Notes under the pieces: generated by a model | Told to the model about the DNA's origin: nothing | Seen by the model: only the letters and a program-made list of their open reading frames with translations | Databases searched by the model: none | Part shown: positions 43,797 to 58,871 of the stretch, piece after piece | Layout of the letters: each line of letters starts with the position of its first letter | Numbering within the stretch: position 1 is the stretch's first letter | NCBI RefSeq assembly: GCF_018614135.1 | Contig: NZ_JAGGOW010000067.1 | Location: 1 to 64,000, forward strand | Direction: 5' to 3' | Length of the DNA stretch: 64,000 bases | Source of the DNA: Streptomyces sp. ISL-66 | GTDB lineage: Bacteria > Actinomycetota > Actinomycetes > Streptomycetales > Streptomycetaceae | Position numbers and translations under genes: made by a program

Positions 43797-44141
43797 TCAG
43801 ACCCCGAGGGCGTCCTCCACGCTCGCATGGACGGAAAGGACCGTATCGGCCCCGGTTACGGCGAAGAGCCGGCGCAACTGCTCGCTGGGGGCGGCGATGC
43901 GCAGGGCCGTTAGGTGGTGGAACCGAAGGAGGAGGTTCAGGAAGGAGGAGTCCCCGAAGGTGATGGCACCGGCGTCCAGAACCACCAGCGGGCACCGGTT
44001 CGCGGCGGAGGCAAGCGCCTCCGCCAGCGGAGCCAGCGTGTCCTGGTCCAGCTCTCCGCGGGCCGCCACCACCCACCCGGTGCCCGCCGGGTAGCCGTCC
44101 CGGACCACACCTGTCTGGAATGCGTCCCCTGCTCCGGTCAT
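43797..44141 (-). CDS. STAS-domain anti-anti-sigma factor (RsbV/BldG-like)
   Basis: 114 residues from an ATG at 44141 (GGGAGGCGGGC upstream). STAS pattern: WVVAARGELDQDTLAPLAEA, then CPLVVLDAGAITFGDSSFLN with the phosphorylatable Ser in DSS, and ALRIAAPSEQLRRLFAVTGA. In partner switching the unphosphorylated form binds an RsbW-type anti-sigma factor and frees the sigma factor. It is divergent from the SigB-like gene 210 bp away, which fits a functional link. Confidence 0.88.
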   Translation of the reverse strand: MTGAGDAFQTGVVRDGYPAGTGWVVAARGELDQDTLAPLAEALASAANRCPLVVLDAGAITFGDSSFLNLLLRFHHLTALRIAAPSEQLRRLFAVTGADTVLSVHASVEDALGV

Positions 44142-44351: not shown

Positions 44352-45281
44352 ATGTCTCGCTCGGCCACCGTCATGGGACCCATTCGTGCTACAGACGTGC
44401 AAGCTCCTGCTTGTGATGACCGGGGCCTGGTGGGAGCGCCACCGCAGGACACGGACCGCGTCGAGGTCGAGAACGCCCGCGAGGTGGCCCCGGCCGACGC
44501 CCGTGAACTGTCGCGGCACTTCTTCGCGAGGCTGCGCATCCTGGAGGAGGGCACGCGCGAGTACCAGTACACGCGCAACACCCTGATCGAGATGAACCTC
44601 TCGCTCGTGCAGTTCGCGGCACGGCGCTTCCGGGCCCGCGTGCTCGGCGGCGGTCTCGACATGGACGACATCATCCAGGTGGGGACCATCGGCCTGATCA
44701 AGGCCATCGACCGCTACGACCTCCAGCGGGACGTCGAATTCTCCACGCTCGCGCTCCCCTACATCATCGGTGAGATCAAGCGCTTCTTCCGTGACACCAC
44801 GTGGGCCGTGCACGTACCGCGCCGGCTTCAGGAGCTGCGTATGGAACTCGCCAAGGCCCAGGAGGCCCTGAGCGACGTCCTGGGCAGGGCGCCGACGGTG
44901 AAGGAGCTCGCCCACCACCTGGAGCTGTCCGAGGACGAGGTCATCGACGGGCTGGTTGCCGCGAACGGTTACACGAGCGGTTCGCTCGACACCGTCGTCT
45001 CGGACGGCGACGCGGCCTCCTCGGCGAGCGGGACTTCGCGGCCGCTCGCGGAACGCCTCGGCGAGGTCGACTCCGGCATGGAGCTCTTCGAGGATTTCCA
45101 CACCCTCGCGCCCCTGCTGGGGCAGTTGGCGGAGCGCGACCGGCTCATCCTGCGGATGCGCTTCGGCCAGGAGCAGACCCAGGCCGAGATCGGCGCCGAG
45201 CTGGGCATCTCCCAGATGCAGGTGTCGCGCATACTGTCCCGCACGCTGGCCCGGCTGCGCGCCGGCATGCTCGCGGAGTAG
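44352..45281 (+). CDS. SigB/SigF/SigG-family stress sigma factor
   Basis: 309 residues with GGGAGGGGAG upstream. Region 2: NTLIEMNLSLVQFAARRFRA, then GGGLDMDDIIQVGTIGLIKA, IDRYDLQRDVEFSTLALPYI and GEIKRFFRDTTWAVHVPRRL. Region 3: LGRAPTVKELAHHLELSEDE. Region 4: LAERDRLILRMRFGQEQTQA with EIGAELGISQMQVSRILSRT. This is the SigB/F/G type, of which Streptomyces has about nine copies, serving osmotic, oxidative or developmental stress. RsbW-like and RsbV-like genes surround it. No clear GTTT-N15-GGGTAC autoregulatory promoter was found upstream. Confidence 0.92.
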   Translation: MSRSATVMGPIRATDVQAPACDDRGLVGAPPQDTDRVEVENAREVAPADARELSRHFFARLRILEEGTREYQYTRNTLIEMNLSLVQFAARRFRARVLGGGLDMDDIIQVGTIGLIKAIDRYDLQRDVEFSTLALPYIIGEIKRFFRDTTWAVHVPRRLQELRMELAKAQEALSDVLGRAPTVKELAHHLELSEDEVIDGLVAANGYTSGSLDTVVSDGDAASSASGTSRPLAERLGEVDSGMELFEDFHTLAPLLGQLAERDRLILRMRFGQEQTQAEIGAELGISQMQVSRILSRTLARLRAGMLAE

Positions 45282-45618
45282 GGAAGTGACCTGGGGCGCC
45301 TGGGCCGGGGCGCGACACCGCTGACCGCCCAGCCGCCGCGGGACCTGGCCGGAGCGCGGCTGGGCGGCAGCGGGCCGCTCGTTCGGCCCGGGGTCTCCTC
45401 CGAATGCGACCTCCCCTTGCCCGAACCGGCCCTCACCGGTGGGCGACGCACCCCGCCTCCCCCTGCTCCCACGGAGGTCTGACCCGGGCCCGTGCCATGG
45501 GCACGGGCTTCGCCCCGCGGCTCACCACGGCAACGCCGTGAGAACGGGGGTCGCCTAGACTGTCGTGGGCCGGGCCAGGAAGCACAGACCAGTACCGACG
45601 TGGGGGTGAAAGACCTCG
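45282..45618 (+). other. Intergenic region with hairpin
   Basis: 337 bp between the sigma factor and the ATPase gene. A 12-bp inverted repeat (CCGCCCAGCCGC at 45325-45336, partner at 45356-45367) lies 44 bp after the sigma-factor stop and probably terminates it. The rest must hold the promoter of the ATPase gene; no gene was seen. Confidence 0.55.
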
Positions 45619-46083
45619 GTGGAGACCATCGGACCTGAAGTGGGTGATCCGTCGAGCGCGGGCCTGCCCCCCGCGGGACAGCGCCGCAGGCTCGCCCTGA
45701 CGGGCGTCCGCGGCGCCGTGGCCAAAGGCCGCGACTTCACGCGCGGGGCCCTGCGCGACTGGGGGTGGGACGGGACCGCGACCACCGAGGACACCCTTCT
45801 CCTCGCGTCCGAGCTGCTGACCAACGCCTCCCTGCACGCGGGCGGCTGTCACGAGCTCGTACTCACGGCCGGAGAAACCCTGCTCATCGAGGTCTACGAC
45901 GGCACCACCACCCTGCCCAGCCGTCACCCCGCCCCGCAGCGCGGCATCCCGGGCGGCCACGGCCTCCACATCGTGGACCGCCTGTCCGACTGCTGGGGCT
46001 CGCGCGCGCACGAACACGGCAAGGCCGTCTGGGCGGAGATCGACGCGTCCCGGCTGAAGTCCGGCAGGCCCACCGGTCGATGA
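45619..46083 (+). CDS. RsbW-like ATP-binding anti-sigma regulator
   Basis: 154 residues from GTG at 45619. HATPase_c motifs: LLLASELLTNASLHAGGCHE (N box), IEVYDGTTTLPSRHPAP (G1 region), GIPGGHGLHIVDRLSDCWG (G2). There is no histidine-kinase domain. Proteins of this type bind STAS partners and/or sigma factors; it is the closest one to the SigB-like gene and the best candidate for its anti-sigma factor. A bidirectional hairpin follows the stop. Confidence 0.85.
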   Translation: METIGPEVGDPSSAGLPPAGQRRRLALTGVRGAVAKGRDFTRGALRDWGWDGTATTEDTLLLASELLTNASLHAGGCHELVLTAGETLLIEVYDGTTTLPSRHPAPQRGIPGGHGLHIVDRLSDCWGSRAHEHGKAVWAEIDASRLKSGRPTGR

Positions 46084-46120
46084 CCCCGGCGCTTCGGGTC
46101 GCGCTTCCGCCGCCTCGGCA

Positions 46121-46158
46121 CGCCGTCCGGGGCCCGTCGAGAGGGGCCCCGGACGGCG
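46121..46158. terminator. Bidirectional hairpin between convergent genes
   Basis: CGCCGTCCGGGGCCC (46121-46135) pairs perfectly with 46144-46158 across an 8-nt loop, between the ATPase gene and the DUF4235 gene. Confidence 0.7.
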
Positions 46159-46171
46159 AGCGGCACGTCGC

Positions 46172-46843
46172 CTACCCCGGCCAGGTGCCCGTGACCCGCT
46201 GCGTCGCGAGGGCCCCTGACCGTTCGACGGCCGCCCTGACGACGGCGAAGATCGCGCCCTGGAGGGCGGCGGCTATGAGGATCTCCTTCCAGGAGCGGTC
46301 CTCATCGGTGGCGTTCGGGGCGTCACCTTCTCCTTCGATCACCTTCCAGGCCTGTTTGAACGCCATCCCGGCGAGCAGGCCGCTTGCCGCCCCCAGTGCC
46401 AGCCCGACCGGCCTGTACGCCGCCGTGGACGCCTTCACTTGCGACCCCCGGCCGCGGCGCACCAGAAGGATGACGATCAAGACCGATCCGATGGCGATCA
46501 GCGGAGTGCGGTTGGCCCGCACCCTGGTGGCCAACCGGTCCGCCTCGCCGAGTACCGGCTCCGGTGTCCTGCCTTTCATGAAATGCGCGGCCTGTTCCGT
46601 CATCCCGGACGCCTTCTCCCTGGCTTGTTCCATGAGGTCCTGGGCCTGAGCCCGGGCGCCGGCCGCCACGTCCATGGCGTGCGCCCTGACGTCGGCGGCC
46701 TTCTCCTCGGCCCGTACCTTGACGTCGGCCTTGGCCGCAAGTGCTTCGACGGTCCGGCCGAGCTCATCGCGCGTGCGCTCGGTCCGGTGCCGCAGTTCCT
46801 CGGACGAGGAGGTGGAGCCGTTCGTGTGGGGCTGGTTCGTCAT
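46172..46843 (-). CDS. DUF3618-DUF4235 fusion membrane protein
   Basis: 223 residues; AAGGAGAGGG precedes the ATG at 46843. The N-terminal part is DUF3618-like (SEELRHRTERTRDELGRTVE, ALAAKADVKVRAEEKAADV), running into an Ala/Gln-rich helix (about 60-100). A membrane segment (PLIAIGSVLIVILLVRRGRG) follows and then DUF4235 (VGLALGAASGLLAGMAFKQA, WKEILIAAALQGAIFAVVRA). The two DUFs are normally neighbouring genes; here they are one protein. Such proteins occur in stress regulons of actinobacteria, and the function is unknown. A terminator of the PRC-barrel gene lies upstream, so it has its own promoter. Confidence 0.8.
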   Translation of the reverse strand: MTNQPHTNGSTSSSEELRHRTERTRDELGRTVEALAAKADVKVRAEEKAADVRAHAMDVAAGARAQAQDLMEQAREKASGMTEQAAHFMKGRTPEPVLGEADRLATRVRANRTPLIAIGSVLIVILLVRRGRGSQVKASTAAYRPVGLALGAASGLLAGMAFKQAWKVIEGEGDAPNATDEDRSWKEILIAAALQGAIFAVVRAAVERSGALATQRVTGTWPG

Positions 46844-46947
46844 CGGTGTGCCCTCTCCTTGATCTGTGCGAGCTGTTGCTTCTGGCGTACCGATCAGGCT
46901 GGTTGGCGCCGCACAGGAGGCCGTCGGCCCTGGCAGGGGAAACGCCT

Positions 46948-46982
46948 GAGGGGGTCCGGACTCGCGGAGTCCGGACCCCCTC
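46948..46982 (-). terminator. Perfect 16-bp hairpin after the PRC-barrel gene
   Basis: Arms 46948-46963 and 46967-46982 (GAGGGGGTCCGGACTC and its complement) with a GCG centre, 10 bp beyond the PRC-barrel stop. Confidence 0.8.
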
Positions 46983-46992
46983 ACGCAGAAGG

Positions 46993-47361
46993 TCAGGCGG
47001 GGCGGCCTCCGAAGGGGGCGCCGGTGCCGTAGTACGTGCCCAGCTCCTCGTGGTAACCCGCGTCGCCGAGGTGCTTGTCCCGGTGGAACTCGGGAGCGCT
47101 CTTGATCTGCTCCTTGGTCCGGTCCACGTAGACCTTCCTGTCCTGCGGGTCGACCCGCAGGACCGTGCTCGCCGGCAGCAGGACCTCCTTGCCGAAGATC
47201 CAGACGCCGGTGTCCACGACCAGGTAGGCGTCACCGACCTCGTCGGAGTGCTTGTCCACCTTGCCGATGTCACCGTCGACCGCCTCGACCTTGAAACCGG
47301 TCAGATCGGTCCCGGCCAGATGGCCCGAGGTGGACTTGTAACTCCACACATGCTCAGTCAC
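46993..47361 (-). CDS. PRC-barrel domain protein
   Basis: 122 residues from a GTG at 47361 with GGAGGAG upstream; the longer frame upstream looks non-coding. TGFKVEAVDGDIGKVDKHSD, then DAYLVVDTGVWIFGKEVLLP and STVLRVDPQDRKVYVDRTKE is the standard PRC barrel, followed by an acidic/His-rich tail (EFHRDKHLGDAGYHEELGTY). PRC-barrel proteins of this kind are strongly stress-induced in Streptomyces and related bacteria but have no proven activity. It is placed among other general-stress genes. Confidence 0.88.
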   Translation of the reverse strand: MTEHVWSYKSTSGHLAGTDLTGFKVEAVDGDIGKVDKHSDEVGDAYLVVDTGVWIFGKEVLLPASTVLRVDPQDRKVYVDRTKEQIKSAPEFHRDKHLGDAGYHEELGTYYGTGAPFGGRPA

Positions 47362-47691
47362 GCGAAAACAACTCCTCCGGTAAGCGGAGGACGACAAGGG
47401 ATCCCCCTGCCGCCCCTCCATTTCCGATGTCGTGCAGCGGACAGCGTCGCGTTCCGCTCGGTCTTCCGCGTGCCCCTGTCCCGGCACCCCATGCCTGCGT
47501 CACCAAAAAAGAATTTTCGGCGCGGCGGTCGCGGGTGCGTGGCACCGGTCGGTACCGAGGCCAGCGTTCGGGGGGTTGAGGAACGGGTCCAGCCGCCGAA
47601 GCCGCAGGGGTGTGCTCGGGCTGCCCGTTGCACGATCGGGTAGGTAAGGCGGGTCCCGACACGGTTTCACAAGGGAATGGTGAGCGGTTCC
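47362..47691. other. Intergenic region without a supported gene
   Basis: 330 bp upstream of the PRC-barrel gene, up to the start of the antiporter relic. It includes a less GC-rich stretch (CACCAAAAAAGAATTTTCGG near 47501-47520). No operator or gene was recognised; the plus-strand open frames have shadow-type translations. Confidence 0.5.
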
Positions 47692-48240
47692 TGGTGTTCC
47701 CGCTGCCGCTTGACGCGCTCCCGACGCTCGACCCCGTCCGGCACCGCGGCGTCGTGGAACACCTCTCGGAGGTCTGCTTCGTGGTCGCGCTGATGGGCGC
47801 GGGTCTTGCCATCAACCGCCCGTCGGGCCTGCGCACCTGGTCGACGACGTGGCGACTGCTGGGCTGGGCAAGGTCGAAAGGCTCCTGACCGCCGTCACCC
47901 TCTTCCTCGTCGGCGGCTTCATCGCCGACGGCGGCCTCGCCGCACTGTCCTGGCGCGGAGGGGTTCTCGGGCTCGTGCTCTTCCTGCTGATCCGCCCGGC
48001 CGTCGCCTGGGCCGTCCAGATCGGCGGCAAGGCCGCCGGCAAAGAGCGAGCAGCCATCGCGTTCTTCGGCATCCGGGGCGTCGGTTCGTTCTTCTACCTC
48101 GCGTACGCCCTGGGCGAGGCGGAATTCGCCGCCCCCGCTTGTGAGTTGTGGGCGACGGTGACCTTCGCCGTCCTGCTGTCGGTACTCCTGCACGGTGTCG
48201 CGGCCACACCCGTCACTGCTCGGCTCGACCGCTACGCCCC
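47692..48240 (+). pseudogene. CPA1-type cation/proton antiporter, truncated and internally deleted
   Basis: Two pieces of one NhaP-like antiporter remain. In the first frame: FPLPLDALPTLDPVRHRGVV, EHLSEVCFVVALMGAGLAIN, RPSGLRTWSTTWRLLG (about 47692-47865). In another frame: VERLLTAVTLFLVGGFIADG, GKERAAIAFFGIRGVGSFFY, LAYALGEAEF and VLLSVLLHGVAATPVTARLD (about 47870-48240). Intact relatives have about 200 residues between these segments and another 40-50 before the first. The relic therefore lacks its 5' end and the ion-binding core. A longer frame continues to 48370 but adds nothing recognisable. Confidence 0.8.
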
Positions 48241-48359
48241 GGACGGACCGGCCCGGAAGGACAAGGCGTCGATGAACAGGTCCCCGCGTGATGTCCCGGA
48301 TTCCGGCTGCACGGCCTTCGCAGGGTTCCTCGTCCTCGGGCAGGACAGCCGACGGTGGT

Positions 48360-48752
48360 TCAGGGGGTAGCGGGGAGCGGGATGAACGCCGTGATCGTCT
48401 TGCCGCCGCCATGGGGTCGGATCTCCGTACGGTCGGCGATCCGATTGACCAGCAGCCAGCCGAACCCTCCCGGTACGTCAAGGGGTGTTCCCGGCGTGCG
48501 GGGCGACGCCGGGGACCTGTCCGACACTTCGACCACCACACAGTCCGCGAGAGGCCGGACGCGGAAGTCGCTGGCGCCGCCGGCGTGGCGGTCGGCGTTG
48601 GAGACGAGCTCGGAGACGACCAGCAGGACGTCGTTCACCAGGCGCTCCCCCAGGCCGCTCACCGCCAGGACGTCGCGGGCGATCAACCGGGCGTCCTCGC
48701 ACTTCAGACCGGCCGTGCGGCGTGGCGTATCCGGCACCTCCTCTTCCCTCAT
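48360..48752 (-). CDS. RsbW-like ATP-binding protein
   Basis: 130 residues from ATG 48752, preferred over 48779 because AAGGGGAAG precedes it. HATPase_c motifs: VNDVLLVVSELVSNADRHAG (N box), VVVEVSDRSPASPRTPGTP, VPGGFGWLLVNRIADRTEIR (G2) and a GGGKTITAFIPL end. Very common in Streptomyces; such proteins are anti-sigma kinases or their relatives. It is divergent from the STAS-like gene at 48988. Confidence 0.85.
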   Translation of the reverse strand: MREEEVPDTPRRTAGLKCEDARLIARDVLAVSGLGERLVNDVLLVVSELVSNADRHAGGASDFRVRPLADCVVVEVSDRSPASPRTPGTPLDVPGGFGWLLVNRIADRTEIRPHGGGKTITAFIPLPATP

Positions 48753-48987
48753 GACTCGCTTCTTCCCCTTCTCGTTCACTCAACCCGCCGAGGGCGCCCG
48801 GCGCAGACCGCGCACGGAGCCGGGTCTGCCGCCCCTCGTCGGAGCGGCGCCCCGGGAACGGGGTGTTCATCCGCCCGTGCTCCACCCCAGCCGGTGATCC
48901 GGACCGTGAAGGAACGCGCATACCGGCCCGAGACGCGGGCATCCGCGCACTGCTCAGCCGATGTGATCGCGAAGACAAGGAGTGTCC

Positions 48988-49353
48988 GTGCTGCCCTTCA
49001 ACGTGACCGAGAACGGTGTGCTGATCATTCGGTTGCGAGCCGACCTGGACATCGCCGGCCGGGCCGCGGCCGCCTGGGCGATCGACGGATACCTCGCCGC
49101 CCACCGCTCCGCACCCGTCATGCTGGAACTCTCGGACGCGCCGCTGAGCAACGCCGCGGTGAGCACCGTCGTACGGACCCGGCGCATGTGCCGCTCCGCG
49201 GGCGCGCCGCTGGCCGTCGTCGCGGCGACCGCCGAAACGCGCCGGGCGCTGGAGGCGCAGACGATGGCCGAGGGTCTGACCGTCCGTCCCACCCGCCGCC
49301 TGGCCGCCGCCGCGCTCTCGGCTGCCTCGGCGCCGGTCGCCGCGGCAGCGTAA
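48988..49353 (+). CDS. STAS-like protein without phosphorylation serine
   Basis: 121 residues. GTG at 48988 is chosen because AAGGAG lies 5 nt upstream; an in-frame GTG at 48982 overlaps that site. VTENGVLIIRLRADLDIAGR and APVMLELSDAPLSNAAVSTV follow the STAS fold; the segment where DSxG is expected reads LSNAAVST, so regulation by phosphorylation is unlikely. C-terminal Ala-rich tail. A long perfect palindrome follows. Divergent partner of the ATPase gene at 48752. Confidence 0.65.
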   Translation: MLPFNVTENGVLIIRLRADLDIAGRAAAAWAIDGYLAAHRSAPVMLELSDAPLSNAAVSTVVRTRRMCRSAGAPLAVVAATAETRRALEAQTMAEGLTVRPTRRLAAAALSAASAPVAAAA

Positions 49354-49692
49354 TACCGGGCGTCCGCGCCGCAGTGGCCCAGTCCGCCCCCGGGGGCGGA
49401 CTGGGCCACTGCACGATTCGGCTACTGGGGCGCGCGGCCCACCAACAAAAGCCGGCAGTCACAGGTGTGAGCAGCGGACTCCGCAGCTCTCACCGGCAGG
49501 CCCCTCCCCCTCGTCTGCGAGGTTCACTGGCAGGCGGGTACGGAGTCGTCGAGAACGCCCGTGCCGGGCAGGCAACCGATCCGTCAGATGGCCGCCACCT
49601 ACCCTGCTGATCACGGTTGAACCCCGCCGTCGGACGGCCACCGCCTGCCACCCGGGTTACGGCCCCGAGCCGCTGCGCAGGATGGTGCGCGG
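49354..49692. other. Intergenic region with a perfect palindrome
   Basis: 339 bp between converging STAS-like and ATPase genes. Apart from the 42-bp palindrome (49371-49412) nothing is recognisable: no gene, operator or second hairpin. Confidence 0.5.
49371..49412 (+). terminator. 42-bp perfect palindrome after the STAS-like gene
   Basis: Two 21-bp arms meet with no spacer (centre CCCCCGGGGG). In RNA it would form a very stable hairpin with a small loop, 18 bp after the stop. Perfect symmetry means it would terminate from both sides. Confidence 0.85.
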
Positions 49693-50100
49693 CTACCACG
49701 CGAGTTCCGCACGGACGGTTTTGCCGTCGTCGTGGCGGATGACCTGCACATCGCAGGCAAGGCGCTGGACGATGGGCCATCCGCGACCGCCGTACAGGTC
49801 CGGGGTGCGGGCGGCAGGAATTGCGTGGTCCGTGTCCCGCACGGTGATCTCGATCCGGTCCCGAAGCAGGGCCAGGCCGAAGATCAGGGGCCCGGGGGCA
49901 TGGCGAACGGCGTTCGTCACCAGTTCGGAGACGACCAGCAGGACGTCGTCGTGAAAGGTGGGATGGGCGGCCGGGGCCTGATCGTCCAGAAACGCGGCGG
50001 CGGCATCTCGCGCTGCGGCGATGCAGCCCGAAGCGCCGTCGAAGTTCATGCACACCTGCTTCGGGCGGGTGTCGTGCTCCGTGACCCGCGGGAGTTCCAT
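49693..50100 (-). CDS. RsbW-like ATP-binding protein
   Basis: 135 residues; GAGAGGGGAG precedes the ATG at 50100. N box HDDVLLVVSELVTNAVRHAP, then EITVRDTDHAIPAARTPD and YGGRGWPIVQRLACDVQVIR as G motifs, and GKTVRAELAW end. Third HATPase_c regulator in 4.5 kb. It is divergent from the STAS-led signalling operon at 50509, a natural partner. Confidence 0.85.
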   Translation of the reverse strand: MELPRVTEHDTRPKQVCMNFDGASGCIAAARDAAAAFLDDQAPAAHPTFHDDVLLVVSELVTNAVRHAPGPLIFGLALLRDRIEITVRDTDHAIPAARTPDLYGGRGWPIVQRLACDVQVIRHDDGKTVRAELAW

Positions 50101-50508
50101 CGCGACTCCCCTCTCCCCTACGCGGTGTGCCTCACCGATCAGGTGATGCCCGCTGCCGTTGACCCATTGCGCCAACCGCGACGAGCCCGCGGCCCGTCGC
50201 ACTGCCGGACCTTTAGTCGCGTGAGCTCCCGGGGACAGGATACATATCCCGTTCGCGCCGTTCAGGCCTACGCATCGTTCTGCCCTCACCGGGGGGTGCC
50301 CCGCTCAGGCCCGCCCAAGTAGCCCTCTCCCGTGCACCGTTGCGCTGCTCGACTGGTGCGGACCACTGGCCCTTTCGAGTCTTTGCGGTGATTCCTCCCT
50401 CCCTGATGCCACACGTCGCTTTGATTGGGTACTGCTTCTAGTGCAGATTCACTACCCTCTAGTGGTGTCCGTTGCCCAGAACAGGCTTGCCGTACGAGGA
50501 GGTCGACC
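50101..50508. other. Divergent promoter region, AT-richer than its surroundings
   Basis: 408 bp between the ATPase (leftward) and the STAS operon (rightward). CTAGTG occurs twice (near 50439 and 50459), and GGGTAC at 50427-50432 resembles a SigB-type -10, but there is no GTTT 14-16 bp upstream. No gene was found. Confidence 0.45.
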
Positions 50509-50853
50509 GTGACGGGTCCCGTGTTCGCGGTCACCACGGTGCTTGATGCCGATGTATGTGCCCTGCAATTGAGCGGTGCGTTGGATCTGGACGGCACTGG
50601 CCAGTTGCGTGCCGCTCTCGCCGACTGCTTCGCGCGGCGGCCGGGCCGTATCGTGCTCGACCTGAAGAGCCTGCTCTTTTGCGACTGCGCGGGACTGAAC
50701 GGGCTGCTGGAGGCCCGGATGAGGGCCGGTAGAGTCGGCAGCGAGCTGTGCGTGGTGGGCGCCCGCACGCAAGTGGCTCGCCTGTTCTTTCTGGCGGGTG
50801 TCGACAAGTGGTTCGCAGACACCGTGCCGCGTCTACCTCCGAGGACCATGTGA
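50509..50853 (+). CDS. STAS protein with Cys at the phospho-serine position
   Basis: 114 residues from GTG 50509 with GAGGAGG upstream. DADVCALQLSGALDLDGTGQ and RIVLDLKSLLFCDCAGLNGL define a STAS domain, followed by GSELCVVGARTQVARLFFLA. Normal RsbV-type proteins have DS(T/S)G; here it is DCAG, so it cannot be phosphorylated on that Ser. It may be a constitutively active or redox-sensitive antagonist. The stop shares its A with the ATG of the response regulator (TGATG), which begins a four-gene overlapping operon. Confidence 0.82.
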   Translation: MTGPVFAVTTVLDADVCALQLSGALDLDGTGQLRAALADCFARRPGRIVLDLKSLLFCDCAGLNGLLEARMRAGRVGSELCVVGARTQVARLFFLAGVDKWFADTVPRLPPRTM

Positions 50854-51536
50854 TGTCATCGAGTCCCCACAGCGCGCTGGGCACCGTGCCACGCACCGCC
50901 AGTGGCCGTATCAGCATTCTGCTGGTCGAGGACCATGACATGGTGGCCGAGGCGATCCGGCTCGCGATGGACCGCACCGACGATCTGGAGGTGGTCGGCC
51001 GGAGCCTGTCGGTCCAGGACGCGCTGACCGATGCCGCGCGACTGCGCCCTGCCGTGGTGGTGCTGGACCGGCGTCTGCCCGACGGTGACGGGATCGACGC
51101 CATCGGTCCGCTCAAGGCCGCGGCCCCCGGCACCCGGGTGCTGGTGCTGACGGGGGAGGCGAGCCCGGCCGTGGCCGCCCGCGTCGCCGAAGCCGGCGCC
51201 TCGGGGCTCATCCTCAAGATCGGCAATCTGCGGGAGCTGCAAGACGGTGTGCGCCGGGTGGCCGCAGGCGAGGTTGCCTTCAGCGAGGGTCTGCTCGGCG
51301 GGGTGCTGGATCGACTGACCGGCCGGACCGCCGATGTGGGCGCGAGGCTCACCCCGCGCGAGCGGGAGACCCTCAGTCTGTTGGGCGAGGGGCTGGGCGC
51401 CGCGGAGATCAGCCGGCGGCTCGGCGTAGCGCTCAACACCGCCAGGAACCACGTACAGCGCGTCCTGGAGAAGCTCGGTGCCCGCTCCCAGTTGGAAGCG
51501 GTCGCCGTGGCCCGTCGCGAGGGCCTGCTGCGATGA
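50853..51536 (+). CDS. NarL/LuxR-family response regulator
   Basis: 227 residues. Receiver domain (about 20-140): RISILLVEDHDMVAEAIRLA, phospho-Asp in AVVVLDRRLPDGDGIDAIGP, VLVLTGEASPAV, SGLILKIGNLRELQDGV. LuxR-type helix-turn-helix (about 165-225): LTPRERETLSLLGEGLGAAE, ISRRLGVALNTARNHVQRVL. Its stop overlaps the kinase start by 4 nt, so the pair is translationally coupled. It is the likely DNA-binding output of the neighbouring PAS kinase. Confidence 0.92.
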   Translation: MSSSPHSALGTVPRTASGRISILLVEDHDMVAEAIRLAMDRTDDLEVVGRSLSVQDALTDAARLRPAVVVLDRRLPDGDGIDAIGPLKAAAPGTRVLVLTGEASPAVAARVAEAGASGLILKIGNLRELQDGVRRVAAGEVAFSEGLLGGVLDRLTGRTADVGARLTPRERETLSLLGEGLGAAEISRRLGVALNTARNHVQRVLEKLGARSQLEAVAVARREGLLR

Positions 51537-52675
51537 GTGGAACGAGCTCCGCCGAAGACGGCGGCCCCCTGGCCCCGACGGAGACCGCGTTCACGCTGCT
51601 GGTCACCAGCGTCCTGGACTACGGCATCTTCATGCTCGATCCCCAGGGACACGTGTCCACCTGGAACGCGGGTGCCGAACGCATCAAGGGCTACAGCGCC
51701 ACGGACATCATCGGCAAGCACTTCTCCGTCTTCTACCCGCCCGAGGACATCGCCGCCCGCAAACCCCACTGGGAGCTGGAAGCAGCCATCCAGGAAGGCC
51801 GGCTCGAGGACGAAGGCTGGCGTATCCGCAAGAACGGGTCCCGCTTCTGGGCAAACGTGGTGATCACCCCTCTGTTCGACGCCACCGGCGAACTGCGCGG
51901 CTTCGGCAAGGTCACCCGCGACATGACCGAGCGCCGTGCCGCGGAGCAGGCACTCACCGAACGCCGCCGCCTCTTCGCCCACCTGGTACAAGCACAAGAG
52001 CTGGAACGCCGCCGCATCGCCTGGGACGTGCACGACGACTCCATCCAGGCCATGGTCGCGGTCGGCATGCGGCTGCAACTCCTCGCCGAACGAGCCGGGG
52101 AGCCGCACGCCCGCGACCTCTCCGAACTCGACGCGTCGGTACGTGAGGCGGTGGACCGCCTGCGCAACCTCACCTTCCGGCTCCAGCCGCCGGGCATCGA
52201 CCGGCACGGGCTGATCGAGTCCTTGTCGCAGCACCTCAACGACGTCGTGGTCGGCAGCTGGGGCCTGCAGTCGTCCATCGAGCACACTCTGGCGAACGAG
52301 CCGGCCCCCGAAACCGCGATCACCATCTTCCGTATCGTGCAGGAGGCGCTGCTCAACGTACGCAAGCACGCCGGAGCGCGCACGGTGCGCGTCAGCGTCA
52401 CCACCGAGGATCAAGGCCTGCTCGTGCGGGTCGTCGACGACGGCACCGGGCAGGCCGCGATCACCCATCGCCTGTACGAACACTTCGGGCTGATCGAGAT
52501 GCGCGAGCGGGCCGAGACCGCCGGCGGATGGTGGACCTTGCGCAGCGAGCCGGGCACCGGCACCACCGTGGAGTTCTGGGTGCCCGACCTGCCCACCGCC
52601 GCGCTGGACGAACCGCTGCCCGGAGCTCTCGCCAAGAGCTTCGACTCCCACACCGCCCCCCCAAGGCCCTCATGA
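51533..52675 (+). CDS. PAS-domain histidine kinase (HisKA_3 type)
   Basis: 380 residues, no membrane helix. PAS domain (about 20-145): DYGIFMLDPQGHVSTWNAGA, IKGYSATDIIGKHFSVFYPP, RFWANVVITPLFDATGELRG. HisKA_3 (about 160-230) with the phospho-His in ERRRIAWDVHDDSIQAMVAV. HATPase_c: TIFRIVQEALLNVRKHAGAR, VRVVDDGTGQ, EHFGLIEMRERAETAGGWWT. The cytosolic PAS could sense an intracellular cue such as redox state or a ligand. Start and stop overlap both neighbours by 4 nt (ATGA). Confidence 0.92.
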   Translation: MSGTSSAEDGGPLAPTETAFTLLVTSVLDYGIFMLDPQGHVSTWNAGAERIKGYSATDIIGKHFSVFYPPEDIAARKPHWELEAAIQEGRLEDEGWRIRKNGSRFWANVVITPLFDATGELRGFGKVTRDMTERRAAEQALTERRRLFAHLVQAQELERRRIAWDVHDDSIQAMVAVGMRLQLLAERAGEPHARDLSELDASVREAVDRLRNLTFRLQPPGIDRHGLIESLSQHLNDVVVGSWGLQSSIEHTLANEPAPETAITIFRIVQEALLNVRKHAGARTVRVSVTTEDQGLLVRVVDDGTGQAAITHRLYEHFGLIEMRERAETAGGWWTLRSEPGTGTTVEFWVPDLPTAALDEPLPGALAKSFDSHTAPPRPS

Positions 52676-53151
52676 CTCAGCCCGCCACTCCCCCGCATCC
52701 CCTGCGGGTCTTGGTCTGCGACGACAACGACGTGCTGCGCGCGGCCCTGGCCGACGTCGTCCGCGCCCAGCACGACCTCACCCTGGTCGGCAGTGCCGCC
52801 GATGCCGACCAGGCGATCGCTCTCGCCCGCGCCCACCGCCCGCACGTCGTGGTACTCGACGTGCGTTTCCCCGGCGGCGGCCCGTACACCGCCCAGGAGA
52901 TCGTCCGCAGCGTCCCCGGCGTACGCGTCGTGGCGTTCTCCGCGTACGGCGACCAAGGGTCGCGCAATGCGATGGCTGCCGCCGGCGTCGCCGGATATCT
53001 CGTCAAGGGCATCACCAACGCCCGGCTGCTGGACGAGATCCGAACCCTGGGAGACCAGGCCCTCGCCTCCCCCTCCTTCGCGGCCGAAGAGACGTCCGGC
53101 GGGCAACACGGCGCCACGAACGCGCACGGTCTCGCGTCTGAGCCGCGGTAG
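52672..53151 (+). CDS. Single-domain receiver protein
   Basis: 159 residues. Complete receiver: LRVLVCDDNDVLRAALADVV, phospho-Asp in HVVVLDVRFPGGGPYTAQEI, VRVVAFSAYGDQ, AAGVAGYLVKGITNARLLDE. The C-terminal 35 residues are disordered and there is no output domain. It starts inside the kinase stop (ATGA), so the kinase probably phosphorylates both this and the LuxR-type regulator. It could be a phosphate sink or act by protein contact. Confidence 0.88.
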   Translation: MTQPATPPHPLRVLVCDDNDVLRAALADVVRAQHDLTLVGSAADADQAIALARAHRPHVVVLDVRFPGGGPYTAQEIVRSVPGVRVVAFSAYGDQGSRNAMAAAGVAGYLVKGITNARLLDEIRTLGDQALASPSFAAEETSGGQHGATNAHGLASEPR

Positions 53152-53154
53152 CGC

Positions 53155-53160
53155 GGGTAC
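53155..53160 (+). promoter_or_regulatory. Possible SigB-type promoter (-10)
   Basis: GGGTAC with GTCT at 53136-53139, 15 bp upstream, is close to GTTT-N14-16-GGGTAC, the SigB/F consensus of Streptomyces. It lies 79 bp before the small zinc-motif gene. One -35 mismatch keeps it tentative. Confidence 0.3.
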
Positions 53161-53238
53161 ACGGGACAACTACGCCCCGCCCCCTCGACTGGAGGGCAAG
53201 GACCCGCGTACGCCCCCGTCGCACGAGGAGATGCCTTC

Positions 53239-53523
53239 ATGAGCACTACCCCGGTCCTGGCCACTCCGTGCCGGACGGTGCGCGCAGCCGCCCGTACAGC
53301 CGTCGGTCTCCCGCCTTCGGCGCTCGACGCGATGCTGGATGCCGCCTACGAGACGCACCGCCGTTTCCGGCACGGCGCGTTCGCCGAGCCTTGCCCGACC
53401 TGCCACGTCTCGGCGGGTGAGCTCTGCCTGGCGCGACGCAGTGTGCACGCCGCCCGCCGGCTGGCGCACCGCGCCCGGGAGACACGGAGCGAGCTGGACT
53501 CGGCTCCGCTGACACCACGGTGA
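53239..53523 (+). CDS. Small protein with a zinc-finger-like motif
   Basis: 94 residues from ATG 53239 (GAGGAGATG context upstream). The centre reads PCPTCHVSAGELCLARRSVH followed by AARRLAHRARETR. The C-x2-C-x8-C plus His arrangement matches small actinobacterial and phage zinc-binding proteins with CPTC...C...SxH. An N-terminal helix (PPSALDAMLDAAYETHRRFR) precedes it. Function unknown. It lies 87 bp after the signalling operon and may be a separate unit. Confidence 0.6.
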   Translation: MSTTPVLATPCRTVRAAARTAVGLPPSALDAMLDAAYETHRRFRHGAFAEPCPTCHVSAGELCLARRSVHAARRLAHRARETRSELDSAPLTPR

Positions 53524-53948
53524 CCCGCTCTGCTGGGAAAGAGCGTCGACGGAGGGCACAACAGCGGGCGGAGACCACAGTTTGTCGCCGTCCGACCCGC
53601 CCAGACGTCCGACGGTCCCGCGGTAATCCCAACAACTCTCCGTTATGCGAAAATCAACTTCTCCCGTCAAGGGAGGCGGAAGGGAAAGAAATCCATACCG
53701 CAGCCCCCACCGCAGCCCCCACCGCAGTCCCTACCGCACTCTTTTCCCTGCATTCACGGCGAACTTCGCGTTCCGACCCATTCCTCGCTTGCCCTGTGCC
53801 GTGTATCGCACCCCCCGATATCCGAGGTCACCTGTCAGCGCGAGAACAGAACTCCGCACCTGGCGACATGGCGGTGGCCTGTCACCCCCAGATCGGGGGG
53901 TGACAGGCCACCGCCATACCACAGCTGAACTGCGACTCTGCGAATCAG
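53524..53948. other. Gene-free region with a 12-bp tandem repeat and a terminator
   Basis: 425 bp without a supported gene; lower GC between 53630 and 53700. ACCGCAGCCCCC repeats from 53697 (two exact units, a third with two changes). The terminator of the small membrane protein lies at the right end. Open frames here translate to repeats or Arg/Ser-rich shadows. Confidence 0.5.
53868..53917 (-). terminator. 22-bp perfect hairpin after the small membrane protein
   Basis: Arms 53868-53889 and 53896-53917 are perfectly complementary over 22 bp around AGATCG, 31 bp beyond the stop of the minus-strand gene at 53949. Confidence 0.8.
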
Positions 53949-54110
53949 CTACCAGCGATACCACCGTCCGCTACTGCCCTTCGGGCGGGCGACAAAACCG
54001 ATCAGCCAGAGCACGAGGACCGCGATAGCGACCCACCAGAGAATTTTGACCGCGAAACCCGCACCGGCGAGAATCAGGACAAGCAGAAGAACAAGAAGCA
54101 GGGGAACCAT
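53949..54110 (-). CDS. Small hydrophobic membrane protein
   Basis: 53 residues from ATG 54110 with GGAGG 8 nt upstream. Almost the whole protein is two membrane helices (MVPLLLVLLLVLILAGAGFA, then WWVAIAVLVLWLIGFVA) with a short basic, aromatic tail (RPKGSSGRWYRW). Tiny proteins of this type (annotated hydrophobic protein) are common in Streptomyces and often stress-induced. A strong terminator follows, which supports it being a real transcription unit. Confidence 0.75.
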   Translation of the reverse strand: MVPLLLVLLLVLILAGAGFAVKILWWVAIAVLVLWLIGFVARPKGSSGRWYRW

Positions 54111-54227
54111 AGTTATCAACCTCCGAGGCATCACCTGCCCGAGAACGCCCCGGCCATGCACACCACAATTGACTGTTCTTTATCGGCGCGAGCGGGAATC
54201 CGCCGCCGGACAACCTGTGCGGCTCCC

Positions 54228-54251
54228 GTTTAGCCGACACGGCTGGGGTAG
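54228..54251 (+). promoter_or_regulatory. SigB-type promoter candidate
   Basis: GTTT (54228-54231), 14 bp, then GGGTAG (54246-54251) fits the Streptomyces SigB/F consensus GTTT-N14-16-GGGTA. It is only 9 bp upstream of the ATG at 54261, so the transcript would be almost leaderless. Confidence 0.4.
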
Positions 54252-54260
54252 GAGGGCCGC

Positions 54261-54515
54261 ATGTTCAAGCACCGACGTGTTCGTACGATTGCTGCGCTTG
54301 CCCTCAGCTGGGCGGCCTTGACATACGTCGAGCGGGTGAGCGAGGACGCATCCTGGCGTATGGCCCTGCTCAGCGGGCTGGTGTGGGGGGCCGTGATAGC
54401 CGGCGCCTGGTGGTTCGCCGAATGGACTCAGATGGGCCGGCGCACCAGGGGCGGCCTCGCGGATCCGGCTGCCACCCGTGAGGACGCGAGCGAGACGACG
54501 CGGAGCACCCCGTGA
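54261..54515 (+). CDS. Small putative membrane protein
   Basis: 84 residues; GGAGGG precedes the ATG. Two hydrophobic helices are predicted: VRTIAALALSWAALTYVE and WRMALLSGLVWGAVIAGAWW, followed by a polar tail (EWTQMGRRTRGGLADPAATR). A SigB-type promoter candidate overlaps the leader, in keeping with the stress-gene neighbourhood. No known family was recognised. Confidence 0.6.
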   Translation: MFKHRRVRTIAALALSWAALTYVERVSEDASWRMALLSGLVWGAVIAGAWWFAEWTQMGRRTRGGLADPAATREDASETTRSTP

Positions 54516-54922
54516 CGGGCCGGCGTCGCAGCGTCCCGCGGTTCCCCGTCGGCTTGCCCCTTCGGCCGCCCCCGCTCGGCCCCCACTTCCTCACGGAAGC
54601 CCTTGCCGTCGTTGCGCGCGGCGTGCGGCGCAGCCGTGCCGCAGGCACCGGAGCCGTCTGCGTGTCCGCCTCCGGGTACCGGTCGCACCCCGGCCGGCAG
54701 GGCGGGTCCGCCGGCGGCGCCTCGGCCCGGCACCGGAGCCGGAGCACCTTCCCGGGCGTCACCGACCCTCACGAGCGCGCCCAGGAAGTCATCGACTCCT
54801 GTACCACCGGGCCCGGCGAACTGGCCTCGTTCCTCGACATGCTGGGCCTCCAGCCGCCCGGGCAGCCGGACGGGAACCGAGCCCGTTCCGAAGGCGACCG
54901 GGGCTACCCCGGGCCGCGGTAA
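54512..54922 (+). CDS. Doubtful hypothetical protein
   Basis: 136 residues overlapping the preceding gene by 4 nt (ATGA), which would allow coupling. The first 85 residues are Arg/Pro-rich and look non-coding, but the end (TDPHERAQEVIDSCTTGPGE, then LASFLDMLGLQPPGQPDG) has a normal composition and a helical pattern. A shorter real gene may start at a rare codon inside. Nothing comparable is read in other frames. Confidence 0.3.
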   Translation: MTGRRRSVPRFPVGLPLRPPPLGPHFLTEALAVVARGVRRSRAAGTGAVCVSASGYRSHPGRQGGSAGGASARHRSRSTFPGVTDPHERAQEVIDSCTTGPGELASFLDMLGLQPPGQPDGNRARSEGDRGYPGPR

Positions 54923-54952
54923 CGGGCAGGGGACGGCGAGGAACGGAGTCGA

Positions 54953-56254
54953 TCACCGACCCTTGTTCTTCTTGCCCTTCGCCTTCCCCGGGGTGTCCTT
55001 CGTCTTCGCCGCACCCGGCACGTTCGCCGGAAGGCGCTCGCCGCCCGGCTGCGGCTCACGCGTGGACGCCTGGAGCCCCGGTGCGGCGGATGGTGTCGCG
55101 AGGGGCAGCGGTGCGGGCGACACCGGCCGGGGACCTGCCGGCGCGGTGTTGTCCGAAGCCGCCGGCTGCTCCTGGACCGGCACGGGGGCCGGCGTCCCGT
55201 TCTCCCCTGCGGGGATGCGGCCCATCACCAGCGTGCAGGCTCCCGCGACACCGACCGCCACGAGGCCCAAGCGAGCCCCGCGCCGACGACGCGCAGCCCT
55301 GCGATGCGCCGGTCCGGGCGTTCGTGCGGGTTCGGCGCGACGACCCTCCGCTGCGAGCGGCCGCCATGGCGAGCGGTGCGTAGAGGTGTCCGTGGCCGGC
55401 GCGCTCCGTTCGGTCCGGGATCGCGGGGCGTGCGCGATGTCCTCCAGGCGCTGGTGGACGGCGGCGGCATCGGGACGTACCGCGGGATCCCGGGCGGTCA
55501 TGGCCTTCAGCAGGCGGGCGAGGTCGTCCGGCAGCCCCTCGGGAATCCCCGGCGCGTGCAGGAGGCGGTCGGTGCCGATCTCCACGGGCGTTCCCCCGTA
55601 CTCCCGGTGGCCCGTGAGCGCTTCGAGGAGCGTCAACCCCAGGGCGTAGATGTCGCTGGCCTTACTCGCGCCGTGGCCGAGGAGCTGCTCGGGGGCCATG
55701 TAGGCGACGGTGCCGACCAGCGTGTCGGGTGCGCTGATGGAATGCTCGTGCACGGTCCTGGACAGCCCGAAGTCGGCGAGGTGCGGGGAGCCGTCCTCGC
55801 CGAGCAGGACGTTGGAGGGTTTCACGTCATGGTGGATGAGGCCGTGATCGTGGACGTGGTCGAGGGCTGACGAGATGTCGGCGCCGATCCGTGCGACCCG
55901 GACGGGGCTGAGCGGGCCGTCGTCCACTCGGGCGCGCAGGGTGGCGCCACGGATCAACTCCGTGACCATGAATGCGCCCTGTCCGTGGCGGCCGGCATCG
56001 TAGACGGTGACCAGAGCAGGATGGGAAAGGCGGGCCAGCACACGTGCTTCGTCACAGAAGCGGTCGGCAGTGACCGTGTCCGTGCCCGCGCGGAACACCT
56101 TGACGGCCACCTCACGACCCAGGACCTGGTCCGTGCCGCGAAAGACATCTGCCGTCCCGCCGGAGCCGATGGGGCCTTCGAGCCGATATCGGCCACCGAT
56201 CAGAGCGTCGCGTTCGGGCAGTGCTCCGTACGTGGGGACGGGCCGGGCCGGCAT
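54953..56254 (-). CDS. Membrane-anchored Ser/Thr protein kinase
   Basis: 433 residues. Kinase domain (about 18-280): GRYRLEGPIGSGGTADVFRG (P-loop), REVAVKVFRAG (Lys), the catalytic loop LIHHDVKPSNVLLG, HLADFGLSRT, GTVAYMAPEQLLG, SDIYALGLTLLEAL. The loop has HHD instead of HRD, so it is a non-RD kinase. A basic linker leads to one membrane helix (about 325-345: RLGLVAVGVAGACTLVMGRI) and a Pro/Ala-rich outer segment ending in Lys-rich KTKDTPGKAKGKKNKGR. No PASTA domains. Located in the signalling cluster, 164 bp downstream of the PP2C gene end on the same strand. Confidence 0.9.
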   Translation of the reverse strand: MPARPVPTYGALPERDALIGGRYRLEGPIGSGGTADVFRGTDQVLGREVAVKVFRAGTDTVTADRFCDEARVLARLSHPALVTVYDAGRHGQGAFMVTELIRGATLRARVDDGPLSPVRVARIGADISSALDHVHDHGLIHHDVKPSNVLLGEDGSPHLADFGLSRTVHEHSISAPDTLVGTVAYMAPEQLLGHGASKASDIYALGLTLLEALTGHREYGGTPVEIGTDRLLHAPGIPEGLPDDLARLLKAMTARDPAVRPDAAAVHQRLEDIAHAPRSRTERSAPATDTSTHRSPWRPLAAEGRRAEPARTPGPAHRRAARRRRGARLGLVAVGVAGACTLVMGRIPAGENGTPAPVPVQEQPAASDNTAPAGPRPVSPAPLPLATPSAAPGLQASTREPQPGGERLPANVPGAAKTKDTPGKAKGKKNKGR

Positions 56255-56418
56255 GGGGTCCTCCTCCGCTCGCGGGCAGTGCCGCGCACCTACCCGTTGC
56301 GGGTCGCCCTACGCACCTGCTCCCGCCGGCCCCGGGGACCGCCCCGACCAGCAGGCGGACGGACCGGACCTCCTGGACACCGGGCCGATCGCCGAGCACC
56401 CCGCGCCGCCGTGGCAGG

Positions 56419-58871
56419 TCAGCGCACCTGGACTCCGATGAGGCACGTGTCGTCGTCGGTGTCCGAGGCGCTGTAGGTCAGCAGGTTGTCGAGCCGCTTT
56501 TCGAGGGAGCCCTCGGGGTGTGAGGCCACGTCGAGAAGCTGCGCGAGAGCATCCGTTACGGAGATGTCCCGGCGTTCGACGAGCCCGTCGGTGTACATGA
56601 GGAGGATGTCCTCGCGTTGCAGCTGTACCTCCTCCTCCGTGAAGGTCACCTCGGGCAGTGCTCCGAGGAGGAGTCCGCCCGCGGTGAGGGGGAAGGCGTG
56701 GGCATCGGTCCCCCGGACCAGGAGGGGGGCAGGTGGCCGGCTCGGGCCCACGTCAGCCGACGGGTCTGCGGGTCGTAGATCGCGCATACGGCGGTTGCGG
56801 TGAGGTTGCTGGTGAGGTGGTAGGCGACGCTGTTGAGCCAGGACAGCAGTTGGGCGGGCCCGGCGCCGGTGACGGCGAGGCCGCGCAGGGCGTTGCGCAG
56901 GATCACCATGCCGGTGGCCGCCTGAATGCCGTGCCCGGCGATGTCTCCGACGCTGATGAGGATCTTGTTGTTGGGCAGGACGACGGAGTCGTACCAGTCG
57001 CCGCCGACGAGGGACTCGGATTCGGCGGGTCGGTAGCGTACGGCGATGCGGATGCCGGGGACTTCCAGCGCGTCCGGAGCCGGAGGCATGATGGCCTGCT
57101 GGAGCTGCAGCGCGAGCTGGGAGCGGTCCGCGGATTCGGCTTCGCTGTCGGCGAGTTGGTCGCGCGTGGCGGCCAGGGCGACCTCGGTCCAGTGCTGCGC
57201 GGAGATGTCCTGGCAGGCGCCTCGAACGGAGTACAGACGACCATGGTCGTCCAGGACGGGTTCCGCCACCATCCGGATGTGCCGGGTGATGCCGTCGGGG
57301 CGCTTGAGTCGGAAATCCACTGAAGATTCGCGGAGCCGGTACAGGAGAGTCCGCAGGAACCGGCCGAGGGAATTGACGTCGTGGGGATGCGCGTGTGCGG
57401 CGATCTCTTCGAGCGGGACCGGGGAGGCCGTCACGGGCAGGCCGAAGAGGGTGAAGAGCTGGTCGTTCCAGCTCGTCTCGCCGGTGGCGACGTTCTGTTC
57501 GAAGCCGCCGACCCGGCCCAGGCGCTGTGCGTGCTGCAGGAGGCTGGCGAGACGCGCGGTTTCGTCTTCGATTCTCCAGATGAGGAGGAGGGCCGTGCCG
57601 TGCCGGCTGATGCTGACGTCGGCGACGGAGGTGAGGGGGACTTCGTCGACGTAAGCCGTCAGGGTGGTCCGTGGTGCCTGAAGGGGCTCACCGGTGGCGT
57701 AGACGCGTTCCAGCTTGGAGAAGAGTCCGTTGTCCTGCGCGGCTGCCGGGTAGGCCTCCAGGAAGTGCGTGCCGGTGACCATCGAGCGTGGCCGTCCCGC
57801 AGGGTCGACGAAGCGCTGGTTGGTGTGATGGATGCGGAAGTCGCTCAGCCTGCCGGTCGAGTCCAGGCTCGGGATCAGGATGAGTACGGGGTCGTGCAGG
57901 TGGTCTGCCAGGTCGGTCAGTTCCGGTACCCCTGCCAGGCGCGGTGTGCGCGAGGCCGAGGCGGGGGTCTGTTCCTCCAGGGTGTGGGAGCACAATTCGG
58001 CCAGGGTTTCCAACTGCCGCAGCAGATGGGGCGGCTGAGCGGGCAGAGGGTCCGGCCAGGACACCTCCAGCACGCCGAGGATGCGTCCTCCGGTGCCCGC
58101 CGGGACCATGATCCGCCCGCCGTCCGGGTGCTGACGCCGTCCGATGGTGGGGATGTCAGAGCTGGAGAGGCAGTCCACGATGGTGAGTTCCCGGCTGTTC
58201 AGCGCCAGTCGCGCACAAGTGGCCACCTCGGGCGGGACGTAGCGCCAGCGGCCGGCGTCCTCGGGGGTGAAGCCGTCCTGTCCTACCAAGGTGATGGAGG
58301 AGTCCGCTGCGACGGCCCAGATCGCGACTCCGTTGGCGCCCAACGCCGACAGGGCGTTTTCCAGCAGGGCGGTGGCCACGGCTTGGGAGTCGGTGGCTGC
58401 CAGCATGCCGCTCTCCGCCGTCCTGAGCCGCATGGCCGCGGAGGGGTCCCGGGGAGCCGCGGGTTCGGCGTCGGCGGTGTCGAGGAACTGTCGTGCGGTC
58501 TCGCTGACGTGGTCCCGGGCGGCCTGATTGATGATGTCGACCGACAGCGCGAGGATGGTCGTGTTCGACTGCTCGGCGAGCTTGGTGATGTGGCGGGAGG
58601 CTTCGCCGGGCCCGCAGCCGAGGCGCTCCACGAGGATGCCTTTGGCCATTTCGATCAGTGCCCGCCCGTCGGAGGCTTCCTGGGCTTCCAGTGCCTCTTG
58701 GCGCAGTCGCTCCACCGTTGCGGCCAGGCGGCCCACCTGGCTGGACTGCGGGACGCTCGGCGCGCTGGTGTGCGGGGGTGTCCCGAGGTCCGCCGTTCGG
58801 GGAGCGGCAGGAACCGCCGGGGCGCTGATGGCCGGGGCGGGTCGGTCCTGCGGGGGGTCGACGGGGTTCAC
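56419..58871 (-). pseudogene. ANTAR-GAF-PAS-PP2C phosphatase, frameshifted
   Basis: ATG 58871 opens a frame of 741 residues that ends at 56646, but the phosphatase domain continues in another frame from about 56730 to 56419 (PLLVRGTDAHAFPLTAGGLL, LMYTDGLVERRDISVTDALA). Six G at 56724-56729 should be seven (LPPLLV). Domains: ANTAR-like (about 65-115: LIEMAKGILVERLGCGPGEA), GAF (about 150-300), PAS (about 310-430), PAS/PAC (about 440-560), PP2C (from about 590: VGGDWYDSVVLPNNKILISV, GDIAGHG). ANTAR usually binds RNA. All parts are well conserved, so a sequencing error is likely; if so the product is about 816 residues. It is 42 bp downstream of the multi-HAMP kinase gene and likely in its operon. 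Confidence 0.85.

Follow-up and report, generated by a model that had tools for sequence, protein, structure and literature searches.

Can a two-component system and a partner switch be joined through an operon and an operator, instead of through domain fusion? The question is raised by a locus of Streptomyces sp. ISL-66, located in a stretch of 64,000 nucleotides (nt) of contig NZ_JAGGOW010000067.1 (hereafter the window), where overlapping genes encode a STAS protein, a NarL/LuxR-type response regulator (RR), a PAS histidine kinase and a lone receiver, with a gene for an RsbW-like ATPase running divergently (Table 1). To our knowledge, the inputs of RsbW-type ATPases and STAS proteins in actinomycetes are mostly unknown. 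A sequence-only reading of the locus had proposed that it unites the two kinds of signalling. The analysis reported here describes a real and conserved gene module with a palindrome ahead of its STAS or ATPase gene; that the two-component system controls the partner switch mainly through gene dosage, as a self-contained actinomycete module, is suggested by sequence comparison with roughly even chances of being right.

Conservation of the gene module

All four genes lie on the plus strand, and their coordinates agree with the overlaps first described, namely 1 nt between STAS and RR and 4 nt each at the RR/kinase and kinase/receiver junctions. STAS, RR, kinase, receiver and ATPase are separate genes, with no fusion of a receiver to an ATPase or phosphatase (Pfam). 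The kinase and RR belong to the NarL/HisKA_3 type, given a HisKA_3 histidine with the DxxxQ motif, an HATPase domain, the RR Asp and Lys residues and a LuxR helix-turn-helix. The last gene was correctly recognised as a receiver without output: Pfam returns Response_reg only, and with its phospho-residues intact the protein is a single-domain response regulator.

Kinase relatives were collected from 84,980 species genomes, and the counts below refer to the close relatives, the best 80 of 209 candidate stretches. They span Streptomycetaceae, Pseudonocardiaceae, Streptosporangiaceae and one member of Micromonosporaceae, the closest named ones being from Streptomyces and Actinacidiphila. An RR gene is adjacent to the kinase in 77 of the 80 (in L086 it is split over two frames and was scored present from the larger piece) and is missing at L092, L095 and L128, the latter two ending at a contig edge. 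A lone receiver adjoins in 69 loci, and an RsbW-like ATPase gene stands between RR and kinase in 49, all from other families or forms than that of the window, so that partner switching is tied to the module more widely than the divergent ATPase alone had suggested. The STAS gene is found upstream in 24 loci, downstream in 28 (22 on the same strand, 6 on the opposite one) and divergent in two. Recurrence of the gene order had been set beforehand as one of the points on which the proposal would stand or fall, and STAS-RR-kinase recurs in those 24 loci; 22 of these streptomycete-type loci also carry the receiver, 22 have the 4-nt RR/kinase overlap, and seven (the only ones among the 80) have an ATPase gene divergent from STAS. 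Within the genus, the kinase was detected at E <= 1e-60 in 9 of 295 genomes, including its own, and a STAS gene adjoins it in all eight others (six upstream on the same strand, two divergent). The lone receiver was also tried as an ortholog probe in 100 genomes and discarded, the domain being too common: besides its own copy, none above 42% identity was listed.

Clustering of the neighbouring genes at the 80 loci revealed little beyond the module. The top shared family outside it occurs in only 14 loci, and families in 10-14 loci reflect chiefly Lentzea synteny (family names judged by eye). No sigma factor or PP2C family stood out in this clustering, no sigma/PP2C profile having been run on the loci.

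STAS and ATPase genes might simply drift along with the two-component system, with no functional link. Their positions do differ by lineage, and such genes are plentiful, the Streptomyces sp. ISL-66 genome having 68 RsbW-type (HATPase_c_2) matches, 54 of them over the cut-off. Mere neighbourhood is nevertheless improbable, given the frequency of the ATPase between RR and kinase, the presence of STAS at one of only three places in 54 of 80 loci, and an operator that sits ahead of the STAS or the ATPase gene.

The palindrome and its predicted binder

Alignment of the ATPase-STAS gap from the window and eight relatives (L072, which lacks the divergent ATPase, being represented by a fixed 500-nt segment) revealed an invariant 17-nt block, CTAGTGCAGATTCACTA, amid variable DNA. 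Its core pattern, TAGTG-N6-CACTA, occurs in 38 copies (34 distinct) in the window and 89 loci (1.19 Mb), all beside the module; other spacings from 0 to 15 gave 0 or 1 copies, and permuted half-sites at most three. In the genome of Streptomyces sp. ISL-66 the pattern occurs twice, once at the module and once upstream of a TetR gene (reversed control, 7). The strict form TAGTGCANNTKCACTA gave seven matches in the 295 same-genus genomes, all at the module and in seven of the nine kinase-bearing genomes, against 12 matches in 10 genomes for its reversed control; no second strict target was visible in these streptomycetes.

As a first matrix had been trained on the loci that it scanned, a second one, built from 23 sites in the 24 streptomycete-form loci only, was run on the 56 other loci as an independent test. 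The best match per locus (mostly about 13 kb) fell in the RR-ATPase gap in 36 loci, upstream of STAS in four, all Amycolatopsis, and elsewhere in 16. This gap averages 1.06% of the locus in the 48 loci with both genes placed, and it holds the best match in 36 of them; 28 of these 36 sites begin 3 nt ahead of the RR gene end. Among 25 streptomycete copies, the window's included, 24 have GATT as inner bases, and eight show a second half-site, CT[AG][AG]TG, at offset 24 and 13 at offset 25, compared with 21 in the window. Taken together, the palindrome CTAGTGCAGATTCACTA is very probably a regulatory site.

The palindrome could also pair in RNA, and in many loci it overlaps the RR stop codon, as would suit an attenuator hairpin; alternatively, it might be bound by an unlinked protein. 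Both possibilities, taken jointly, seem very unlikely, since the inner GATT is conserved, the window leader, the one leader tried, folds no better than shuffled sequences (z 0.05), and Rfam has no match in 45000-57000. The hairpin reading was set aside on the folding and Rfam results.

A DNA site bound by the RR of the module is the probable interpretation. The RR is the sole module protein with a Pfam DNA-binding domain, and all forms of the module share its recognition helix, NTxRNH, in most cases with VQ or IQ next. PimM is a LuxR-type regulator that reportedly binds dyads of a frame similar to the module operator. As far as the accessible account of the PimM-type boxes (CTVGGGAWWTCCCBAG) goes, the likeness lies in the LuxR-type helix-turn-helix and a CTAG...CTAG-like dyad; unlike these boxes, the module operator has 18 bp, TGCA half-sites and mostly local copies.

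A relaxed form of the site was found at 19 places in 12 whole genomes, 1-4 per genome, 13 of them at the module. Two unlinked copies are exact, and each may be due to chance. In Kibdelosporangium (L242, 1501-1516) the distance from the copy to the probable start of a downstream STAS-ANTAR-GAF gene is about 80 nt, although the longest open reading frame (ORF) of this gene runs across the copy. The encoded STAS domain scores 36.6 bits and has LLSTSG at its site, where Asp is again missing. The one in Amycolatopsis vastitatis (L255, 1501-1516) lies about 70 nt ahead of a HAMP-repeat gene, recognised by eye as resembling the type at 58914-62561 of the window. Further unlinked copies are associated with an FKBP gene (L240), a gap between tRNA-synthetase and BrkB-like genes (L243) and an acyltransferase gene (L254). 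A second short palindrome, nearer to the ATPase gene in the nine-row gap alignment, reads GGGTACCC in five rows and GAGTACTC in two, and is altered in the window and L072; it could be an ATPase promoter or another operator.

The STAS site, the ATPases and two forms of the module

The DCAG reported at the STAS phosphorylation site is confirmed as part of FCDCAG (residues 57-62), with Cys60 at the usual phospho-Ser position, where SpoIIAA and RsbV carry D-S-S/T-G. The AlphaFold model (predicted local distance difference test score, pLDDT, 88) places residue 60 at the opening of a helix, and Foldseek matches it best to SpoIIAA bound to SpoIIAB, then to RsfB and RsbV. The protein thus has the STAS fold of RsbV (Pfam, AlphaFold model, Foldseek), and the phosphorylatable Ser/Thr of D-S/T-x-G is replaced by Cys here and in the other streptomycete module proteins.

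Indeed, all 26 streptomycete module STAS proteins (24 upstream, two divergent) have FCDC, followed by A in 22 and S in four, at 31-69% identity to the window protein (for L067 the alignment begins where its profile match starts). The 28 downstream proteins, from Pseudonocardiaceae, read FFGST (13), FFSVA (4), FFGSA (3), FFSSA (3), FFGSS (2), FLALV (1), FFSSS (1) and FLGSA (1): both Cys residues and the preceding Asp are missing, 23 keep Ser and five have Val or Leu. The description of the STAS as non-phosphorylatable therefore fits the streptomycete module and does not extend to all relatives.

Cys-type proteins were also sought outside the module. The STAS_2 model has 18 matches in the Streptomyces sp. 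ISL-66 genome (proteins found only by PF01740 fall outside this search), and among those read only the window protein has Cys at the site, the others showing Ala, Val, Leu or Pro; at L130, L137, L143 and L144 the site was unresolved or absent. The pattern FCDC[AST]G gave 62 matches in 54 of 199 same-genus genomes (reversed control, 1), and FCDS, restricted to TCN codons, 42 matches in all 31 genomes searched. Thirty of the 62 FCDC loci were examined; 29 lie in ORFs scored as STAS and only three beside a module RR and kinase, which rules out a Cys-STAS private to the module. Judged by these patterns, the Cys-type STAS is a minority subclass shared with other loci. Two of three FCDC-type proteins scanned are STAS-ANTAR proteins, and in the same-genus loci L184 and L194 Cys-type FCDC domains are fused to ANTAR.

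In the streptomycete STAS, Cys60 and the Cys two residues earlier might take the place of phosphorylation as a thiol or redox switch. Loss by drift would leave mixed residues, and FCDC is invariant despite the low identities just given. The first Cys is, however, common in Ser-type proteins too, as the FCDS pattern indicates, and neither Cys exists in the 28 Pseudonocardiaceae proteins, so that a redox switch has a small probability in our view.

The kinase tree (79 loci plus the window, 80 kinases in all, without L128, which a contig end truncates; root for drawing only) groups the streptomycete form, STAS-RR-kinase-receiver, in one clade with support 100/97, the bootstrap being unsettled. 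No ATPase gene stands between RR and kinase in this form. Streptomyces megasporus, its sister (99/95), has RR-ATPase-kinase and a divergent FCDC-type STAS; because of this ATPase-bearing sister, the in-operon ATPase probably predated the streptomycete form and was then lost from it.

The divergent window ATPase is closest to SpoIIAB/RsbW in its modelled structure (Foldseek). In an alignment of 71 nearby ATPases, bystanders and the window protein included, every member has the N-box Glu and 70 have the N-box Asn. Against a profile of the in-operon ATPase the divergent protein ranks eighth of the 31 paralogues tested among the 68 matches of its own genome, which leaves its candidacy as ortholog of the in-operon ATPase unsupported, whereas a profile of divergent-position ATPases picks it far above the remaining ones; by profile comparison it is a different paralogue. 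The link first drawn to the divergent gene stands in that an RsbW-like gene is present, and is weakened by its occurrence in few streptomycete-type loci and by its distance from the in-operon type. Two further HATPase_c_2 genes lie nearby (Pfam), at 48360-48779 on the minus strand and at 45619-46083 on the plus strand, the latter matching at 24.4 bits, under the Pfam cut-off of 27.4.

Signalling, known systems and neighbouring genes

Kinase His167, Gln172, Glu271, Asn275, Asp302 and Gly304 are kept in 80 of 80 proteins and Asp168 in 79 (Glu in one); RR Asp72 and Lys122 in 76 of 76 aligned, with Thr100 in 61 and Ala in its place in 15; and lone receiver Asp17, Asp18, Asp63 (the phospho-Asp) and Lys112 in 69 of 69. 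Since the phospho-Asp is intact in both receivers, a single kinase could plausibly serve the two, as proposed earlier; the transfer itself we infer.

In the mechanism preferred here, the soluble PAS kinase would sense an internal signal and phosphorylate the NarL-type RR, which would bind CTAGTGCAnnTGCACTAG ahead of STAS in streptomycetes; in other families the bound site would lie before the RsbW-like ATPase gene, after which come kinase, receiver and often STAS. The RR would thereby set the amount of STAS or ATPase and of the two-component proteins, in a direction that we infer. The lone receiver would act as a second phospho-acceptor of the kinase, either as a phosphate sink or with a protein-level output by contact. 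In streptomycetes, the Cys in place of the Ser target of RsbW-type kinases would keep an ATPase from switching STAS off, and STAS should therefore act by amount, not by phosphorylation. If the one clear streptomycete target of the RR is its own operon, the output would have to pass through the lone receiver and STAS; a STAS partner and a final target are presumed. A more specific version, in which STAS phosphorylation has been abandoned, transcription sets the stoichiometry, the recognisable target of the two-component system is its own STAS/ATPase promoter and the receiver brakes the kinase, is put forward more tentatively.

Several observations weigh against dosage control. No sigma factor or phosphatase was seen as part of the module in the neighbour clustering, and the kinase is rare in the genus (9/295). 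Of the 56 loci not of the streptomycete form, 16 have their best matrix match elsewhere, the two streptomycetes with the in-operon ATPase (L086, L088) lack the strict palindrome, and the six unlinked relaxed-site copies may be chance, because the reversed control gives 17 forward matches. Four Amycolatopsis loci have RR and kinase only; without operator, STAS or ATPase, they still keep the RR recognition helix. Lastly, STAS may have no dedicated partner in streptomycete-type loci that lack the divergent ATPase gene, as do 15 of the 24, which keep the receiver, and two more, which have neither.

The link could instead be post-translational, with the phosphorylated lone receiver binding the ATPase or STAS directly and the operator serving autoregulation only; this would correspond to receiver-RsbW or receiver-PP2C fusions split into separate proteins. 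Such fused versions are known from the accessible accounts of TciR (REC-RsbW) and RsfR (REC-PP2C), the receiver phospho-residues are invariant, and the lone receiver RsdR and its kinase are described, in the portion of the source available, as repressing sporangium opening. We nonetheless regard this link as unlikely: 11 of 80 loci have no adjacent receiver, which makes it dispensable for the arrangement, and five of these have the ATPase (L088, L101, L116, L117, L119).

Compared with RsbV/RsbW and SpoIIAA/SpoIIAB, the module shares the STAS and ATPase folds and the ATPase N-box residues; unlike in RsbV/RsbW, the phospho-Ser is replaced by Cys (streptomycetes) or the Asp is lost (other families), and no sigma factor or PP2C was seen to recur by neighbour clustering, a dedicated profile not having been run. 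HsbR/HsbA is said to join two-component and RsbW/STAS signalling in a fused protein. In RsfSR of Mycobacterium smegmatis, a histidine kinase and a receiver protein likewise feed an actinomycete partner switch, RsfR combining its receiver with a PP2C phosphatase whose substrate is phospho-RsfB (PMC10950880); unlike there, the module RR is predicted to bind DNA and the second receiver is a separate protein. TciKR of Vogesella and SypE/SypA also combine two-component and RsbW/STAS signalling, TciR and SypE through domain fusion in one protein in the part of the article at hand (PMC12826045), the module through operon and operator. For SipA, a constitutive STAS-RsbW contact is reported in the excerpt available. 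RsdK-RsdR of Actinoplanes missouriensis resembles the module in having kinase and lone receiver in one operon; in the accessible text, RsdK has GAF and PAS in another domain plan, the receiver gene lies upstream and no STAS or ATPase gene is mentioned (PMC10733313). On account of its domain plan it was rejected as the same system.

Two-component input to partner switching is thus already known, as far as the accounts of RsfSR, TciR and SypE reach; relative to the fusions they describe, joining via operon and operator appears new. Among open-licence papers, searched by titles and abstract starts, none describing the module gene set or operator was found. The module, found in many soil actinomycetes, appears to join two signalling systems usually studied apart and, with its defined sensor, conserved partners and predicted operator, makes one partner-switch set testable end to end. 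It suggests that a STAS without phospho-Ser may run by dosage, which would extend to other such STAS proteins seen.

Table 1. Features of the module locus (positions in the window).
Feature	Position	Strand	Basis
Divergent RsbW-like ATPase, HATPase_c_2	ORF 49693-50289, likely start 50100 (49693..50100)	-	Pfam; start inferred from relatives
Predicted operator, palindrome CTAGTGCAGATTCACTA(C)	50438..50455	no strand	Alignment, pattern and matrix scans
Possible second half-site CTAGTG	50459..50464	+	Offset 21 from palindrome in window
STAS protein, GTG start, site F-C-D-C-A-G	50509..50853	+	Pfam STAS/STAS_2, AlphaFold model, Foldseek
NarL/LuxR response regulator (RR), likely operator binder	50853..51536	+	Pfam Response_reg and GerE
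Soluble PAS-HisKA_3-HATPase histidine kinase	51533..52675	+	Pfam PAS, HisKA_3 and HATPase_c
Lone receiver	52672..53151	+	Pfam Response_reg only; B12-binding match sub-threshold

The surrounding contig, from 43797 to 65739, is rich in partner-switch genes, with STAS genes at 43797, 48982, 50509 and 64502 and ATPase genes at 45619, 48360, 49693 and 65398 (64502 and 65398 being outside the window). A small ORF downstream of the module (53239-53523) matches PF24623, a phage zinc-binding domain, weakly and below the cut-off. An ANTAR-GAF-PAS-SpoIIE phosphatase gene at 56419-58871 on the minus strand appears to be broken across two frames: 56646-58871 matches the SpoIIE domain in its first half only, and the rest seems, by eye, to lie in the overlapping ORF 56419-56787. 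A HAMP-repeat hybrid kinase (58914-62561) lies near this SpoIIE gene, and a longer homologue of the phosphatase (835 aa) is located near the module in L044.

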